Shown here: one piece after another, positions 2,104 to 20,734 of the stretch
How positions within the stretch are numbered: the first letter of the stretch is position 1
How the letters are laid out: each line of letters starts with the position of its first letter
From: a virus
Virus record (IMG/VR): IMGVR_UViG_3300029309_000377
Span: 1 to 22,484 of that record
Strand: one strand, 5' to 3'
Length of the DNA: 22,484 nt
Notes under the pieces: model-generated
The model's database searches: none
What the model saw: the letters and a program-made list of their open reading frames with translations, nothing else
What the model was told of the DNA's origin: nothing
Program-made: the position numbers and the translations under genes

Positions 2104-2144
2104 ACGCCGTATTTTTGCATGTGGCAATTTGGGATCGTGCAAAG

Positions 2145-3311
2145 ATGTTGTTCCGTCGTCGCGTCGAGTACACCGGCGCACCGGGATTTTGGGAACGGCA
2201 AATGCCGAATTTTAACTCCAAACACCGTGTCCAGGAACGCGACGCGCTCGGCATCGGCGCCGTATATGCGTGTGTCAGTAAGATAAGCGGCACAATCGCC
2301 GCGTTGCCGTTTGAGGTGTTCCGCATCGAAGGCAACCGCCGCGAATTAGACGCCGCACACCCGGCCGCCGAACTACTGGCGCAAAGTCCACAACCGGGAA
2401 TGACCCCGTTTGCGTTTTTCGAAACGATTGTTGCGCATGCCCTTGTTTACGGGAAAGGCTTTGCCATTATCCAACGCGACCGTGCCGCCGTGCCGGTGTC
2501 GTTGAGTATCGTCCACCCTGACGACGTCGAATATTTCAAAGATGAAACCGGTCACGGGTACGCGGTGCGCGAATTCGGATTTGTCGACGACGCGGATATG
2601 TTTTGCGTCAAGTGTATGCACGGCCTTTCGCCGGTTCGGTTGCATTCTGATTCATTGGCGACACTTCGCAACGCTGAAAATTTCGCGGGCGAGTTTTTCG
2701 GCAATGGCGGTCAAATGACCGGAATTTTGACGAGCGACACGCCAATTCGAGCCGAACAGGCGCAAGAAATTGTCAAACAGTGGCACGGCGGTTCGCAAGG
2801 CGGAACCAAAATTTTGCCGTTTGGCCTGAACTATCAACGAATAAGTTTGCGACCCGACGAGGCGCAATATATCGAAAGCCGAAAATTTGGAATCATTGAG
2901 GTCGCACGAATCTTTAACGTGCCGCCAATTATGATACAAGCCGAGGAAGCGGCATCATATCAGGGTAGCGCCGCATATGACCTGTTCTTTGCGAAACACA
3001 CGATTGCCCCGTGGGTTTGCCGTATTGAACAAGAAATTCGCAACAAGTTGATGACGAAAGCGGAACGGCAAACGCACGTTGCGCGATTTGACATGCGCGG
3101 GTTGATGCGTGGCGACCAGGCCGCACGGTCGGCGTATTTCTCAGCCATGTTGTCTAGCGGATCAATGACAATTGACGAGGTTCGCCGCGCTGAAAACCTC
3201 GACCCCGTTCCGAATGGCTTTGGTGCGCAACATCTTGTCCAGGTCAACCAATTGAACCTTGAACAGGTTCCGGAATACTCGAAAAAAATTGCCGGAAACG
3301 AACTATCCTAA
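2145..3311 (+). CDS. Phage portal protein (HK97-type)
   Basis: The portal forms the dodecameric DNA channel at the capsid vertex and docks the terminase. The ATG at 2145 (MLFRRRVEYTG) gives 388 residues; the frame is open to a TTG at 2115 and a GTG at 2121, so the start is uncertain by up to 10 residues. Family hallmarks are visible: ACVSKISGTIAALPFEVFR near residues 50-70, HPAAELLAQSPQPGMTPF, LVYGKGFAIIQRD, FFGNGGQMTGILTSD, ARIFNVPPIMIQ and the C-terminal DLFFAKHTIAPWVCRIEQEI. The order terL-portal-protease-capsid is canonical. The reading frame ends inside the longest possible frame of the next gene, but a GTG 20 bp downstream is the better start for that gene. Confidence 0.94.
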   Translation: MLFRRRVEYTGAPGFWERQMPNFNSKHRVQERDALGIGAVYACVSKISGTIAALPFEVFRIEGNRRELDAAHPAAELLAQSPQPGMTPFAFFETIVAHALVYGKGFAIIQRDRAAVPVSLSIVHPDDVEYFKDETGHGYAVREFGFVDDADMFCVKCMHGLSPVRLHSDSLATLRNAENFAGEFFGNGGQMTGILTSDTPIRAEQAQEIVKQWHGGSQGGTKILPFGLNYQRISLRPDEAQYIESRKFGIIEVARIFNVPPIMIQAEEAASYQGSAAYDLFFAKHTIAPWVCRIEQEIRNKLMTKAERQTHVARFDMRGLMRGDQAARSAYFSAMLSSGSMTIDEVRRAENLDPVPNGFGAQHLVQVNQLNLEQVPEYSKKIAGNELS

Positions 3312-3330
3312 AAAAGGCGACGACAAAAAA

Positions 3331-5556
3331 GTGTCGTTGAGCAACTCAAACGTTGCCAGGTTCGACCGTGCTTTTGCGGCCCGTATTAAAGAAAAATACC
3401 CGAAAATTTGGGGTGCGGGCGGAAACACGCGAGGAAATGCCGCGTGGCGTTTGTACAACCGCGCCTTGGATGGCGACGACGCACCCGCCGTTTTGGATTG
3501 GATTCGCGAACGCGAAGCGTGGGCGGCACGTCATGCAAAAGACGGTTCACAATTTCCAGGCGCCTCGGCGACCATTTCAAGCGTTGCCGGAGTCGTTGCG
3601 GCGATGAAATGGGGCGTCGTTTTAAACATTGGACAAAAGACCATGAAAAACACTATCAACGAAGTCGTCGAAAAATTAGACGACGACGAACGCACGGAAC
3701 CGCAGGAAACCGAAAACCGCGACACATACAATTGCACCGGGTCAACATGTGAAATTCGCATGTCCGAAGATGAACCGACCATTGTCGGGTATGCCGCATT
3801 GTATGACGCACCGACACAAATCGGTTCATTCCGTGAGGTTATCAAACCGGGCGCATTTGACGACGTCGTTGACGGCGACGTTCGAATGTTAATCAACCAT
3901 GACCCCAACCAGGTCGTTGCCCGAACTACTTCGGGAACGTTGAAATTGACGGTTGACGAACGCGGTTTGAAATATGAAGCCAAACCCGGTCAACAAACGT
4001 ATTCGCGCGACCTGGTCGAAAGTATTCAACGCGGTGACATTTCCGGTTCATCGTTTGCATTTACCGTGAAACCTGACGGTCAAGAATGGAACGAGGACCG
4101 AACCGAAAGGTCAATTTTTCGCGTGAATTCCCTTGCCGAAGTATCGGCGGTTGTTTTCCCCGCCTACGAACAAAGCACCGTCACGGTTCGAAGTGAGGAA
4201 CACAAAGAAGAAACAAATTCCCCGGTCGATACTGACCACAAAACACCATCCCCCAAAAAAAACGATTCCATGTCTTTGGAAACAAACGAAATCCGGCGCA
4301 AAATGTCGGAACTTAACGAGCGCACCGAAACGGTGAACAACGCCATCGAGGCCGACGGCCGTCAAGCCTTCGCCGAAGAACAGCGCGAACTTGACGAAAT
4401 TTCCGACGAGTACGGTCGATTGACTGAAAAATTGAAGCGGGCCGAACAGGTCGAGCGCCAACGCGCCGCCCTGGCCGTTTCCGGCGGTGCGTCCAAATCC
4501 GACGTTCGCGAAGCGCGGGAAATGAACCGCAAATTTAGTTTGTCGAAAGCCATCACAGAGGCGGCATATGGCAAGTTGAGCGGCGTCGAGGCGGAATGGT
4601 CCCAAACCGCACAAAACGAGGCGCGCGCGGCCGGCCAGACGCTCGAAGGCAATTTCGCAATTCCAGAAATGGCGTTTCGTGCTGACGAACCGGGCGTTTT
4701 CGGTGCAACCGCTTACGACACCTCTTTGGTCGCCAATTCTGACACCGCAACGGGCGGCGCATTTGTGCCAACCAACGTCGGGTCGTTCATTGAACAACTT
4801 CGCCCCGCGCCCCTCGTCGAAAGAATGGGCGCAACCGTTCTTAACGGTTTGACCGGCGACACGGTTTTGCCACGCGCAAACGCATTCAACGCCGCAGTTG
4901 CGGCCGAGGGCGGCGCTATGGGTTTCTCCGGTACGGTTGATTCAATCACGCTTTCCCCGAACCGCGTTGGTGGTCAGGGCATCTATACAAAACGCCTCCT
5001 GATGCAAGGCGGCGCCGATGTCGACCGAATGATTGCGTCTGAAATGGGACGTGCCATCACCGAAGCCATCGATTCGCTTTGTATTGAAGGCACGACACCC
5101 GCCGGTTTGAACCAAACAAACCAACACACCGACGTTGCCAACACTGGCGGCCTTGATGAAATTTTGCCACGCGCCGAGGGTGCATATATCGCCGCCGGCG
5201 GTGACCCCAACGCAATGGTGTTTTTGATGGGTCCGGAAGCACACGCCGACGCCCGAACCTCGGCATTGATTGCCAACGTCGCGCCCATTTACGGCAATGA
5301 CGGACAAGGTTCGACAATCTTTGGTCGCCCCGTGTTTGTTTCGAAGCATGTCACCGACACGGCCGCCGCGCCGGAGGTGTATTTGCTAGATCCTCGAACG
5401 CTGATTCTTGGATTCTTTGGAACGGGCGTTGATTTTATCGCTGACCCGTTTAGCAGTGGCGCCACGTCTGAAATTCGCTTGTATTCCTCGCGGTATTTTG
5501 ACACCGACGTTCGCCACGCGGGTCTGGTTCAATACTGTTCCGATACCATCGCCTAA
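3331..5556 (+). CDS. Three-part head protein: conserved N-terminal domain + HK97 prohead protease + HK97 major capsid protein
   Basis: One uninterrupted frame of 741 residues from GTG 3331, preceded by an AAGGCGA-like purine stretch; a TTG at 3259 would overlap the portal by 53 bp and is less likely. Residues 1-104 (RFDRAFAARIKEKYP, GGNTRGNAAWRLYNRA, AVAAMKWG-type end) resemble a small domain often encoded just before prohead proteases. From about 105 (internal ATG 3643) comes the S78-type protease, with His about 190 in LINHDP and Ser about 240 in ISGSSFAF. From about 314 (internal ATG 4270) comes HK97 gp5-like capsid: a charged coiled-coil delta domain, then a mature shell starting around TATGGAFVP and ending in SSRYFDTDVRHAGLVQ. 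The protease would cleave itself and the delta domain from the shell. Internal starts may also give separate products. Confidence 0.93.
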   Translation: MSLSNSNVARFDRAFAARIKEKYPKIWGAGGNTRGNAAWRLYNRALDGDDAPAVLDWIREREAWAARHAKDGSQFPGASATISSVAGVVAAMKWGVVLNIGQKTMKNTINEVVEKLDDDERTEPQETENRDTYNCTGSTCEIRMSEDEPTIVGYAALYDAPTQIGSFREVIKPGAFDDVVDGDVRMLINHDPNQVVARTTSGTLKLTVDERGLKYEAKPGQQTYSRDLVESIQRGDISGSSFAFTVKPDGQEWNEDRTERSIFRVNSLAEVSAVVFPAYEQSTVTVRSEEHKEETNSPVDTDHKTPSPKKNDSMSLETNEIRRKMSELNERTETVNNAIEADGRQAFAEEQRELDEISDEYGRLTEKLKRAEQVERQRAALAVSGGASKSDVREAREMNRKFSLSKAITEAAYGKLSGVEAEWSQTAQNEARAAGQTLEGNFAIPEMAFRADEPGVFGATAYDTSLVANSDTATGGAFVPTNVGSFIEQLRPAPLVERMGATVLNGLTGDTVLPRANAFNAAVAAEGGAMGFSGTVDSITLSPNRVGGQGIYTKRLLMQGGADVDRMIASEMGRAITEAIDSLCIEGTTPAGLNQTNQHTDVANTGGLDEILPRAEGAYIAAGGDPNAMVFLMGPEAHADARTSALIANVAPIYGNDGQGSTIFGRPVFVSKHVTDTAAAPEVYLLDPRTLILGFFGTGVDFIADPFSSGATSEIRLYSSRYFDTDVRHAGLVQYCSDTIA

Positions 5557-15439: not shown

Positions 15440-15576
15440 TATTAAAAACATATGATGACGACGCACGGGACGACATCAGCGACGAAAACAACATTCGTTT
15501 GGTTTTGGACGAACTGCAAACGGTTTTGGTTGACATCATTGAACGTTTGGAAAATTTAGAAAATGCGAAAGATTGA
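15436..15576 (+). CDS. Small acidic coiled-coil protein
   Basis: This 46-residue frame starts ATG 15436 in a 4-bp ATGA overlap with the tail protein stop and ends TGA 15574-15576, overlapping the endolysin start by 14 bp. It begins MILKTYDDDARDDISDEN and ends with a heptad-like helix (LVLDELQTVLVDIIERLENL). Coupled overlaps on both sides and the absence of any other gene in this gap support expression. Function is unknown; small coiled-coil proteins at this place could be tail accessory or lysis-related. Confidence 0.6.
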   Translation: MILKTYDDDARDDISDENNIRLVLDELQTVLVDIIERLENLENAKD

Positions 15577-16033
15577 GAAAATTTATATTCATTGTAGCGC
15601 AACGCCGCCATCAATGGACGTCGACGCCGACACCATTAAAAAATGGCACACCGCCGAACCGCCAAATGGCAACGGTTGGTCGGACATTGGATATCATTTT
15701 GTGATTGGTCGAAGCGGCGAAATCGAAAGCGGCCGCGCGTTGGACAAGGTCGGCGCACATGTCAAAGGCGACAACAAATTTTCGATTGGGATTTGTTACG
15801 TTGGCGGCGTAGATGACGACGGTCAACCGTCCAACAATATGTCGAGAATGCAACGCGCGGCAATTGTGCGAATCGTTCGTTCGTTGCGGATCGTGTTGAA
15901 CACGCCGTTGGAACTTGTTGGTCACAACGACGACCCAAAAACGAACAAGGCTTGTCCGTCTTTTAAAGTGTGCGACGAGTTCGCCGACCTGGTTTCGTGG
16001 TTGCAACATTACGATGCCAATAAAAACGGCTGA
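15563..16033 (+). CDS. N-acetylmuramoyl-L-alanine amidase endolysin (Amidase_2, T7-lysozyme-like)
   Basis: The 156-residue zinc amidase cuts the bond between muramic acid and the peptide stem of peptidoglycan. Zinc ligands of the T7 lysozyme type are visible: His10 in YIHCSA, His121 in ELVGHNDDP and Cys131 in NKACPSF, with Lys129 just before; Tyr44 in DIGYHFVIG matches the catalytic tyrosine. Length fits a single catalytic domain with no cell-wall-binding module, which is usual for phages of Gram-negative hosts. No signal peptide or SAR segment is seen, so a holin is needed for release. The next gene is a candidate. Confidence 0.93.
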   Translation: MRKIEKIYIHCSATPPSMDVDADTIKKWHTAEPPNGNGWSDIGYHFVIGRSGEIESGRALDKVGAHVKGDNKFSIGICYVGGVDDDGQPSNNMSRMQRAAIVRIVRSLRIVLNTPLELVGHNDDPKTNKACPSFKVCDEFADLVSWLQHYDANKNG

Positions 16034-19755: not shown

Positions 19756-19856
19756 AAACATTTAATTCGTTGAGCGGCGGCCAGTCGTCGTCATACATTG
19801 CCGCCAATTACCCGGCCGATTTTGACGATTGTGATTCGGGTCATTGCGGGTTATGA
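19752..19856 (+). pseudogene. N-terminal remnant of a PAPS-reductase-like (PP-loop) gene
   Basis: A 34-codon frame begins ATG 19752 (4-bp overlap with the HNH stop) and ends TGA 19854-19856, overlapping the methyltransferase ATG. Its first 25 residues contain NSLSGGQSSSYIAANYPADF, the start of phage phosphoadenosine-phosphosulfate-reductase-like proteins, including the SGGxSS PP-loop. Full proteins are normally around 200-300 residues, and here the match stops after about 27 residues and runs into CDSGHCGL. The simplest reading is an internal deletion that removed most of the gene and joined its head to the methyltransferase. It may still be translated as a short peptide. Confidence 0.68.
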
Positions 19857-20734
19857 TGCGTCACGGATCGTTATTTTCAGGCATCGGGGGTTTTGACCTC
19901 GCCGCCGAGCGCGTCGGTTGGCGCAACGTTTATCATGTGGAACGTGACCCGTTTTGCCAAACGGTATTGAAACACCATTTTCCAAATTCAAGAAGTTTTG
20001 AAAAAATCGAAGAATTCGACGGGTTCACCCCAATTGTCGATGTCATCACTGGCGGGTTTCCTTGCCAACCATTCAGCAACGCCGGACAACGAAAAGGCAT
20101 TGCCGACGACCGCTATTTGTGGCCCGAAATGTTCCGCGTCATTGGCAACGCTCGGCCCCGATGGGTCGTCGCTGAAAACGTTTCGGGCCTTGTTCGTTGG
20201 TCGGGCGGATTGGTACTCGACACGGTGTGCGCTGATTTGGAAAATATTGGGTACGACGTCGGGGCGTTTCTTGTTCCAGCTTGCGGCGCGAACGCGCCCC
20301 ACCGACGTGAACGAATATGGATTGTTGCCAACGCCAAACACGCAACCACGGGAACGAACGGCGGATCAAACCAAAAAACGCCGCCAGAAATACGGCGGGA
20401 CGCGGCGCGGAATGTACCTGGAACATTTACTCGTCGAAGGGTTGTTGCCAACACCATTGGCACAGGAAAGCGACAAGATAACAGGCAAGGAAAATCAAGA
20501 TTCATTGACAAAACGTTGCCGTTTACAAACTGGAAAGAATTCCCAACTATCTCCCCTATTCGTTGCGGAAATGATGGGGTTCCCGATACATTGGACGGTC
20601 TCACCGTTTCAAAATGGCGCCGACAATCGTTGAAGGCATACGGCAACGCAATTGTGCCGGTAATTGCGCAACGCATATTTGAAACAATTCAAGCCGTCGA
20701 AGATGGTTTGACATCGTGGGATGAGGTTAAATAA
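19853..20734 (+). CDS. C5-cytosine DNA methyltransferase (Dcm-like)
   Basis: ATG 19853 gives 293 residues in an ATGA overlap with the upstream remnant. Motifs are in order: I, SLFSGIGGFDLAAERVGW (AdoMet binding); IV, GGFPCQPFSNAGQ with catalytic Cys71; VI, VAENVSGL at 106-113; VIII, APHRRERIWIV at 148-158; and X, QSLKAYGNAIVPVIAQRIFE near the end. The region between VIII and X is the target-recognition part. All catalytic motifs are intact, so the enzyme is probably active and would protect phage DNA from host restriction. No cognate restriction gene is visible. A long second frame is nested inside it. Confidence 0.94.
   Translation: MMRHGSLFSGIGGFDLAAERVGWRNVYHVERDPFCQTVLKHHFPNSRSFEKIEEFDGFTPIVDVITGGFPCQPFSNAGQRKGIADDRYLWPEMFRVIGNARPRWVVAENVSGLVRWSGGLVLDTVCADLENIGYDVGAFLVPACGANAPHRRERIWIVANAKHATTGTNGGSNQKTPPEIRRDAARNVPGTFTRRRVVANTIGTGKRQDNRQGKSRFIDKTLPFTNWKEFPTISPIRCGNDGVPDTLDGLTVSKWRRQSLKAYGNAIVPVIAQRIFETIQAVEDGLTSWDEVK
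19998..20633 (+). other. Long overlapping frame nested in the methyltransferase gene
   Basis: In the +1 frame relative to the methyltransferase, 211 codons are open (TTG 19998 or ATG 20040 to the stop at 20631-20633). The translation does not look random: RADWYSTRCALIWKILGTTS, RFLFQLAARTRPTDVNEYG, LLPTPNTQP, LLPTPLAQE and LSPLFVAEMMGFPIHWT. I remember similar LLPTP and FVAEMMGFP stretches in database proteins encoded by other phage methyltransferase loci. Those entries could themselves be shadow frames, preserved because the methyltransferase is conserved. Coding status is therefore open and the feature is not called as a gene. Confidence 0.4.

Follow-up and report, generated by a model that had tools for sequence, protein, structure and literature searches.

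In phage HK97, the prohead protease (gp4) is encoded by a gene separate from that of the capsid protein (gp5), which carries a delta scaffold domain. The locus described here resembles HK97 in having an S78-type protease, an HK97 fold and a scaffold segment within the capsid protein, but its protease is fused to the capsid protein and preceded by a further N-terminal domain, here called dom1. A second point of comparison is phage lambda, whose nested genes C and Nu3 were reportedly described by Shaw and Murialdo in 1980. There, an in-frame start nested inside the protease-containing gene gives rise to an abundant assembly protein, as we propose from sequence signatures for the present locus, although what lambda makes from the inner start is the scaffold, Nu3, with the capsid protein E made separately and a protease from an unrelated family. 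Genes in which protease and capsid are fused are described, in the passages concerned, for Arthrobacter phages Circum, Gordon, and Maggie and Rhodococcus phage RRH1 (PMC5513430), and for Lactococcus phage Nocturne116 and Pseudomonas phage PAJU2 (PMC8306868). Like the present locus, these fusions, and likewise PHROG 617 and PHROG 4523, join the protease and a capsid protein of HK97 type in a single frame; the passages on the named phages mention neither an additional N-terminal domain nor an internal capsid start. Two-part fusions and delta-scaffold arrangements have already been published, and the less familiar elements are dom1 and a conserved inner start. Our literature search, which covered mostly openly accessible papers and is weak evidence of absence, found no report of an inner capsid start in a protease-capsid fusion.

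With regard to dom1, two further groups come close. Head maturation proteases of PHROG 80 (e.g. that of Pontimonas phage phiPsal1) carry, as with dom1, a module N-terminal to the S78 protease, and a W..R.AW.ARH..D ... GVVA..KWG-like motif appears to be common to both. The match between dom1 and this module was partial (hhalign, probability 73.6%, E 2.9e-5 for the single pair, 37 aligned columns), and the PHROG 80 profile matched the window protein only from residue 110 on, with no match to dom1 alone; dom1 may be a distant relative of the PHROG 80 module. In Salinibacter ruber phage protein 9_3_27 and related proteins (183 records), dom1 occurs with 49% identity and precedes a DUF5824-like domain and a protease, but, unlike in the window, the capsid protein of these phages is encoded by a separate gene.

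In this study, we analysed a virus record of 22,484 bases (hereafter the window), in which a fusion frame stands behind a TerL-like gene and a portal gene. Encoded in this frame are dom1, a prohead protease of the S78 family, and a capsid protein of HK97 type, and the earlier note on this DNA was right in reading it as a single three-part frame without an internal stop: it is open from 3256 to 5553 on the plus strand, up to a stop codon at 5554-5556. Its closest relative is G001 (IMG/VR 3300037961_002933), the TerL and portal of which are closely similar to those of the window. The features of the locus, referring in part to an alignment of dom1 sequences (A2), are as follows.

2115 to 3311, plus strand: portal protein gene (Pfam Phage_portal, 4.2e-79), with an uncertain start codon, TTG 2115 or ATG 2145.
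3289 to 5556, plus strand: fused head gene of 755 aa, an open frame with TTG 3289 as its probable start (relatives' alignment, low local structure).
3289 to 3693, plus strand: dom1, with a lead-in at 3289-3366 and helices at 3367-3693 (A2 alignment, AlphaFold2).
3643 to 3645, plus strand: in-frame ATG encoding Met119 of the last dom1 helix, counterpart of the G001 protease start (alignment, AlphaFold2).
3694 to 3738, plus strand: disordered linker between dom1 and protease, residues 136-150 (pLDDT < 50, full-length model).
3745 to 4152, plus strand: prohead serine protease, Peptidase_S78 (Pfam/NCBIfam, model).
4171 to 4263, plus strand: disordered, fast-changing linker between protease and capsid, residues 295-325 (pLDDT < 50; divergence from G001).
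4267 to 4629, plus strand: helical delta/scaffold segment of the capsid protein, residues 327-447 (full-length model).
4270 to 4272, plus strand: probable internal capsid start codon, Met328 (context, structure, synonymous constraint, relatives).
4279 to 4357, plus strand: stretch of strongest synonymous constraint against G001 (0/15 synonymous differences, 6.4 expected; best windows).
4690 to 4779, plus strand: low-confidence stretch, residues 468-497 (full-length model).
4780 to 5553, plus strand: HK97-fold capsid domain (Pfam Phage_capsid; Foldseek).

The protease part matched Peptidase_S78 over residues 141-293 of the 741-aa reading (Pfam, 1.2e-40, 139.8 bits against a curated cut-off of 21) and TIGR01543 (NCBIfam, 102.3 bits against a cut-off of 59), and by its score above the curated cut-off it is a member of the Peptidase_S78 prohead proteases. 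We take His204 (3898-3900) and Ser254/255 (4048-4053) to be its candidate catalytic residues, their roles being assumed from family knowledge. The capsid part matched Phage_capsid over residues 479-730 of the 741-aa reading (Pfam, 3.4e-18, 66.5 bits against a curated cut-off of 24.2) and TIGR01554 (NCBIfam, 51.1 bits against a cut-off of 27.5). A PHROG 617 match (residues 145-739, 2.2e-50) spans both parts, and by this match the window protein is a PHROG 617-type protease-capsid fusion with both parts in one open frame. The full-length model (AlphaFold2, 755-aa chain, 41-row alignment of the window and its relatives; mean pLDDT 78.6, pTM 0.46) shows a helical dom1 to residue 135, a beta-rich protease at 153-288, a helical delta segment at 327-447, and then the capsid domain. 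With the full model, Foldseek returned 325 PDB matches at E <= 0.001, the best 50 of which were phage, GTA, archaeal tailed-virus, cf-PICI, or encapsulin shells or engineered cages. The capsid domain best matched the phage R4C capsid (8gta, 6.2e-12), and also other HK97-fold shells; as modelled, the capsid part has the HK97 fold. By analogy with HK97, maturation cleavage would be expected within residues 468-497 (4690-4779). Elsewhere in the window, an ORF at 15563-16033 (plus strand) resembles by eye an N-acetylmuramoyl-L-alanine amidase, and a 211-aa ORF at 19998-20633 (plus strand) lies in another frame over a putative cytosine methyltransferase gene (19844-20734, plus strand). The latter ORF has a protein-like make-up by eye (LLPTP..., ...MMGFPIHWT) and may be a real overlapping gene.

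The fused gene had been taken to begin at GTG 3331, but a conserved lead-in runs further upstream. In the relatives this lead-in has the form M..TDFPxxGDDxxVSLRNS, and its window version upstream of GTG 3331 reads PETNYPKKGDDKKVSLSNS; since the lead-in is present there, the gene begins upstream of that codon. Of 91 distinct non-portal dom1 ORFs, a start codon lies 1-7 codons upstream of the lead-in motif in 86, and within 3 codons of it in 84; the corresponding start codon of the window is TTG 3289. Four of the five exceptions are contig-end cuts or have a divergent lead-in missed by the search pattern, and the remaining one is a Salinibacter phage ORF with dom1 in mid-protein. As to local structure, 7.7% of 362 structure windows were less stable than that at TTG 3289, compared with 68% for GTG 3331. 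The fusion gene probably starts at TTG 3289 instead of GTG 3331, in which case it overlaps the 3' end of the portal gene by 23 nt.

The N-terminal domain of about 100 residues is indeed conserved, as had been claimed, with 27 invariant columns among the 39 aligned sequences of A2. Its first ~100 residues had no match in Pfam, PHROGs, or NCBIfam. Modelled alone with AlphaFold2, dom1 gave a mean pLDDT of 90.9 and a pTM of 0.85, its last helix comprising residues 116-135 (counted from TTG 3289), and neither a sequence relative (best E 1.8) nor a fold match (best E 3.9) was found for it in the PDB. Matches in BFVD at E <= 0.0031 were to viral proteins without a name only, and structure matches to prohead proteases were weak (E 0.27 and above); these weak matches point to the same PHROG 80-type kinship, albeit they prove nothing.

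When viral contigs were first scanned with dom1, 48 loci were obtained, and a scan with alignment A1 gave at least 577 dom1 relatives among at least 599 candidate stretches, with 80 kept. The cellular scan, covering 84,980 species, gave a single locus, and matches in the phage collection were confined to the 183 Salinibacter phage records. Our census is of kept loci, which are those most similar to the query, so that the sample is not random, and its 108 distinct dom1 ORFs include ORFs cut by contig ends and that of the window. How often the domain is fused, a question raised in the earlier note with a profile search in mind, can be answered within this census: there is no named family, and 33/108 ORFs reach the capsid, with dom1, protease, and capsid in one frame. 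Twenty-eight of these 33 also contain a DUF5824-like domain, and 29 are complete. Another 17/108 have dom1 on the portal C-terminus, and the remaining 58/108 are of other kinds, mostly dom1-protease with a separate capsid gene; dom1 was also found on a different protease family, XkdF/Peptidase_S78_2 (L043). Judged from this distribution, dom1 is a mobile module, located on the protease N-terminus or the portal C-terminus. A tree of 58 protease domains requires at least 3 changes of protease-capsid fusion state, rows of unknown state being left out, and at least 8 changes in the place of dom1, counts that are rough because the tree has several long branches and many open forks (21/53 inner branches).

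Several other arrangements were seen among these phages. The DUF5824-like domain (PF19141), for which a literature search of the same scope found no paper naming it, appears as a second mobile module after dom1, on proteases, on portals, or alone (L020, L034, L089, L107, and L134). The portal of some dom1 phages is itself joined to a Mu F-like domain (L055:749-3796 and L059:2093-5956; Pfam Phage_portal and Phage_Mu_F), which adds another fusion to this gene cluster; the Phage_Mu_F match in L059 is just below the cut-off. In L032:3127-5246, as compared to L031/L033, the dom1-DUF5824 part and the protease-capsid part lie in different frames, owing to a frameshift or an assembly error.

G001 contains a protease-capsid fusion with 81% identity to that of the window and no stops; the only interruption is 10 consecutive N within the protease (3586-3595, L145), where the frame also appears to shift. 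It lacks dom1, and the ATG with which its protease begins overlaps the stop codon of the portal gene and corresponds in the alignment to window ATG 3643. The DNA of G001 at the position of the lead-in would read ETNFP, which suggests that dom1 was lost. Because the same bases encode the conserved C-terminus of the portal, they do not decide the direction of change, and the protease tree likewise gives no direction between the window and G001.

ATG 4270 had been placed exactly at a domain border, and in the model it does lie at the start of the delta helix, just after the disordered linker of residues 295-325. Initiation at this codon, with a shorter product, had also been suggested and appears probable in view of its start-like context, low structure, and downstream constraint. 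As a reference set we used 15 gene starts in the window that we judged plausible. These starts share A-rich contexts, and a Shine-Dalgarno sequence (SD; 4-nt match) was present in only 1/15; ATG 4270 is also without an SD, which is uninformative given that the starts of the window are SD-poor. In a context model derived from the 15 starts, ATG 4270 scored 0.40; 11/15 starts score at least as high, but just 7% of 101 internal ATGs do so. No other ATG of the frame is as weakly structured (0.6% of 362 structure windows less stable), and 11/15 of the chosen starts fall in the lowest 12% of local structure. In the comparison with G001, the linker before 4270 has changed freely, and the constraint at 4279-4357 has a P of 0.012 for any place in the whole compared frame.

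The corresponding site was tested in 35 fused ORFs, namely the 33 with dom1 (the window counted once, as L011), L032, and that of the cultured Acinetobacter phage Alexa (L062), where we examined the ATG that comes first behind the protease domain and counted an SD when it had at least 4 nt. In Alexa, AGGA precedes this ATG. Such an SD was found at the capsid ATG in 30/35 fused ORFs (11/15 by sequence cluster), compared with 163/847 other in-frame ATGs, and an SD of 6 nt or more in 9/35 compared with 6/847. The five ORFs without it are those of the window, L019, L020, L023, and L024; in L019 and L020 the capsid start is likely the next ATG. In a whole-gene scan of synonymous change, the lowest of 899 windows in group A (7 sequences) was located 8 codons after the ATG (z -4.31) and the lowest of 900 in group B (9 sequences) 7 codons after it (z -4.81), and these minima were reached in 0/1000 shuffles. 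In group C (5 very similar sequences), the minimum lay 19-26 codons upstream and the near-start value was not significant. An earlier scan of 7 groups, from the protease onward, placed the minimum directly behind the start in no groups other than A and B; it was upstream in C and F, at -42 in D, and far away in G (two sequences each in D, F, and G), and group E had six differences in all, which is too few. Local structure at the capsid ATG of the relatives is low in some and average in L107 and L136.

The capsid gene of unfused relatives starts at a similar place. Readthrough or a same-frame design in these relatives was considered and dropped, since among 51 distinct protease/capsid pairs 14 were in the same frame and 27 and 10 in the other frames, with no excess over one third. 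Separately, a recurring DNA word of about TTCGCGC[AG]GA was seen 30-50 nt after the inner capsid ATG in L089, L107, L081, and their relatives, which belong to different groups; this word may be part of the constrained element.

Taken together, these signals make it moderately likely, in our judgement, that the gene has a dual output, consisting of a scarce full-length fusion (about 82 kDa, estimated from its length) and an abundant capsid precursor started from within (about 46 kDa, likewise estimated). From TTG 3289, a weak start that overlaps the portal gene, would come a minor amount of the full-length fusion, which would join the prohead via its capsid part as a subunit bringing its own protease, and the internal ATG 4270 would supply most of the capsid protein, delta scaffold included. 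Once assembly is complete, the protease would cut its own disordered linkers and the delta segment, freeing dom1 and the protease inside the head. Judging from gene context alone, dom1 would probably serve to dock the protease or an initiator complex at the portal. The portal, protease, and scaffold of lambda have been described, in the passage concerned, as an initiator complex (PMC3224144), which by analogy fits a portal-protease link through dom1, albeit it is no test of that link.

Alternatively, every capsid subunit may be made as the full fusion, with a self-cleaving protease and one protease per subunit. Such an obligate polyprotein would be in keeping with a frame without a stop, with the missing SD at window ATG 4270, and with PAJU2, whose capsid polyprotein is so described, with self-cleavage proposed, in the passages concerned (PMC8306868). 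We nevertheless consider it rather unlikely, as the fused relatives show a conserved SD-ATG and synonymous constraint at the capsid start, and ATG 4270 itself is start-like in context and low in structure. The 1:1 ratio of protease to capsid raised in the earlier note is not supported as stated: if ATG 4270 works, most capsid subunits need not bear a protease, and the concern about stoichiometry is probably resolved in this way.

Less likely than the obligate polyprotein is a set of three nested products, in which ATG 3643 also initiates and gives a protease-capsid fusion without dom1, besides the product of ATG 4270. The suggestion that ATG 3643 acts as a start stands in part, in that the dom1-less G001 starts its protease at the equivalent position, and among the ATGs of the frame only ATG 4270 is less structured than ATG 3643 (3.9% of 362 structure windows less stable). 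Its context score of -2.2, however, is equalled or exceeded by 14/15 starts, as well as by 24% of internal ATGs, and the encoded Met119 is a conserved structural residue. Rather than marking a domain border, as had been assumed, this residue lies inside the last helix of dom1 (residues 116-135); it is invariant in 39/39 rows of A2, and a Met follows the KWG motif in 102/108 dom1 ORFs, including the 17 portal-fused ones. Among fused ORFs an SD was present at this Met in 4/28, and the whole-gene scan of fused relatives detected no synonymous constraint around it. With neither signal, ATG 3643 was dropped as a conserved start in the fused relatives.

Slightly less probable again is that the constraint near the capsid start reflects not initiation but a structured RNA, a joint left by recombination, or the remnant of a once separate capsid gene. 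The constraint extends to about codon +29 after ATG 4270 in the window, and to codon +20 or beyond in groups A and B as well as the window. In group B it is also found 15 codons upstream of the ATG, and the capsid modules of this group differ downstream. Since the constrained stretch is longer than an initiation site needs, an additional RNA element or recombination is possible. Yet the constrained position is that of an ATG which has an SD in 11/15 clusters, and the shuffle-tested minimum falls there in two separate groups. Finally, an assembly or sequencing artefact, such as a base lost in the A8 run (4255-4262) that lies in the protease/capsid linker directly before the capsid start, is hardly credible, and a homopolymer artefact was rejected, because the same joint is open without a stop in G001, an independent contig with 81% identity, and comparable joints are open in many further contigs.

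In summary, the window contains dom1, protease, and capsid in one open frame, for which we favour a dual output from TTG 3289 and ATG 4270. More tentatively, and with somewhat less than even confidence, we suggest that it represents a recurrent design of environmental phages, in which a portal-proximal docking domain, protease, scaffold, and shell share a single gene and the shell has a conserved start nested inside it. Translation within one frame would then set how many subunits bear a protease relative to those that are plain, in a design that would have arisen by at least three separate fusions and been maintained because the inner start is under selection. As a module, dom1 is widespread and matches no named family in the libraries searched; that it is found fused to portal as well as to protease hints that these two proteins are linked during prohead initiation. 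If true, the conserved inner start would be a simple answer to how phages with protease-capsid fusions avoid a protease on every subunit, and the same question of an inner start applies to the cultured phages that have such fusions.
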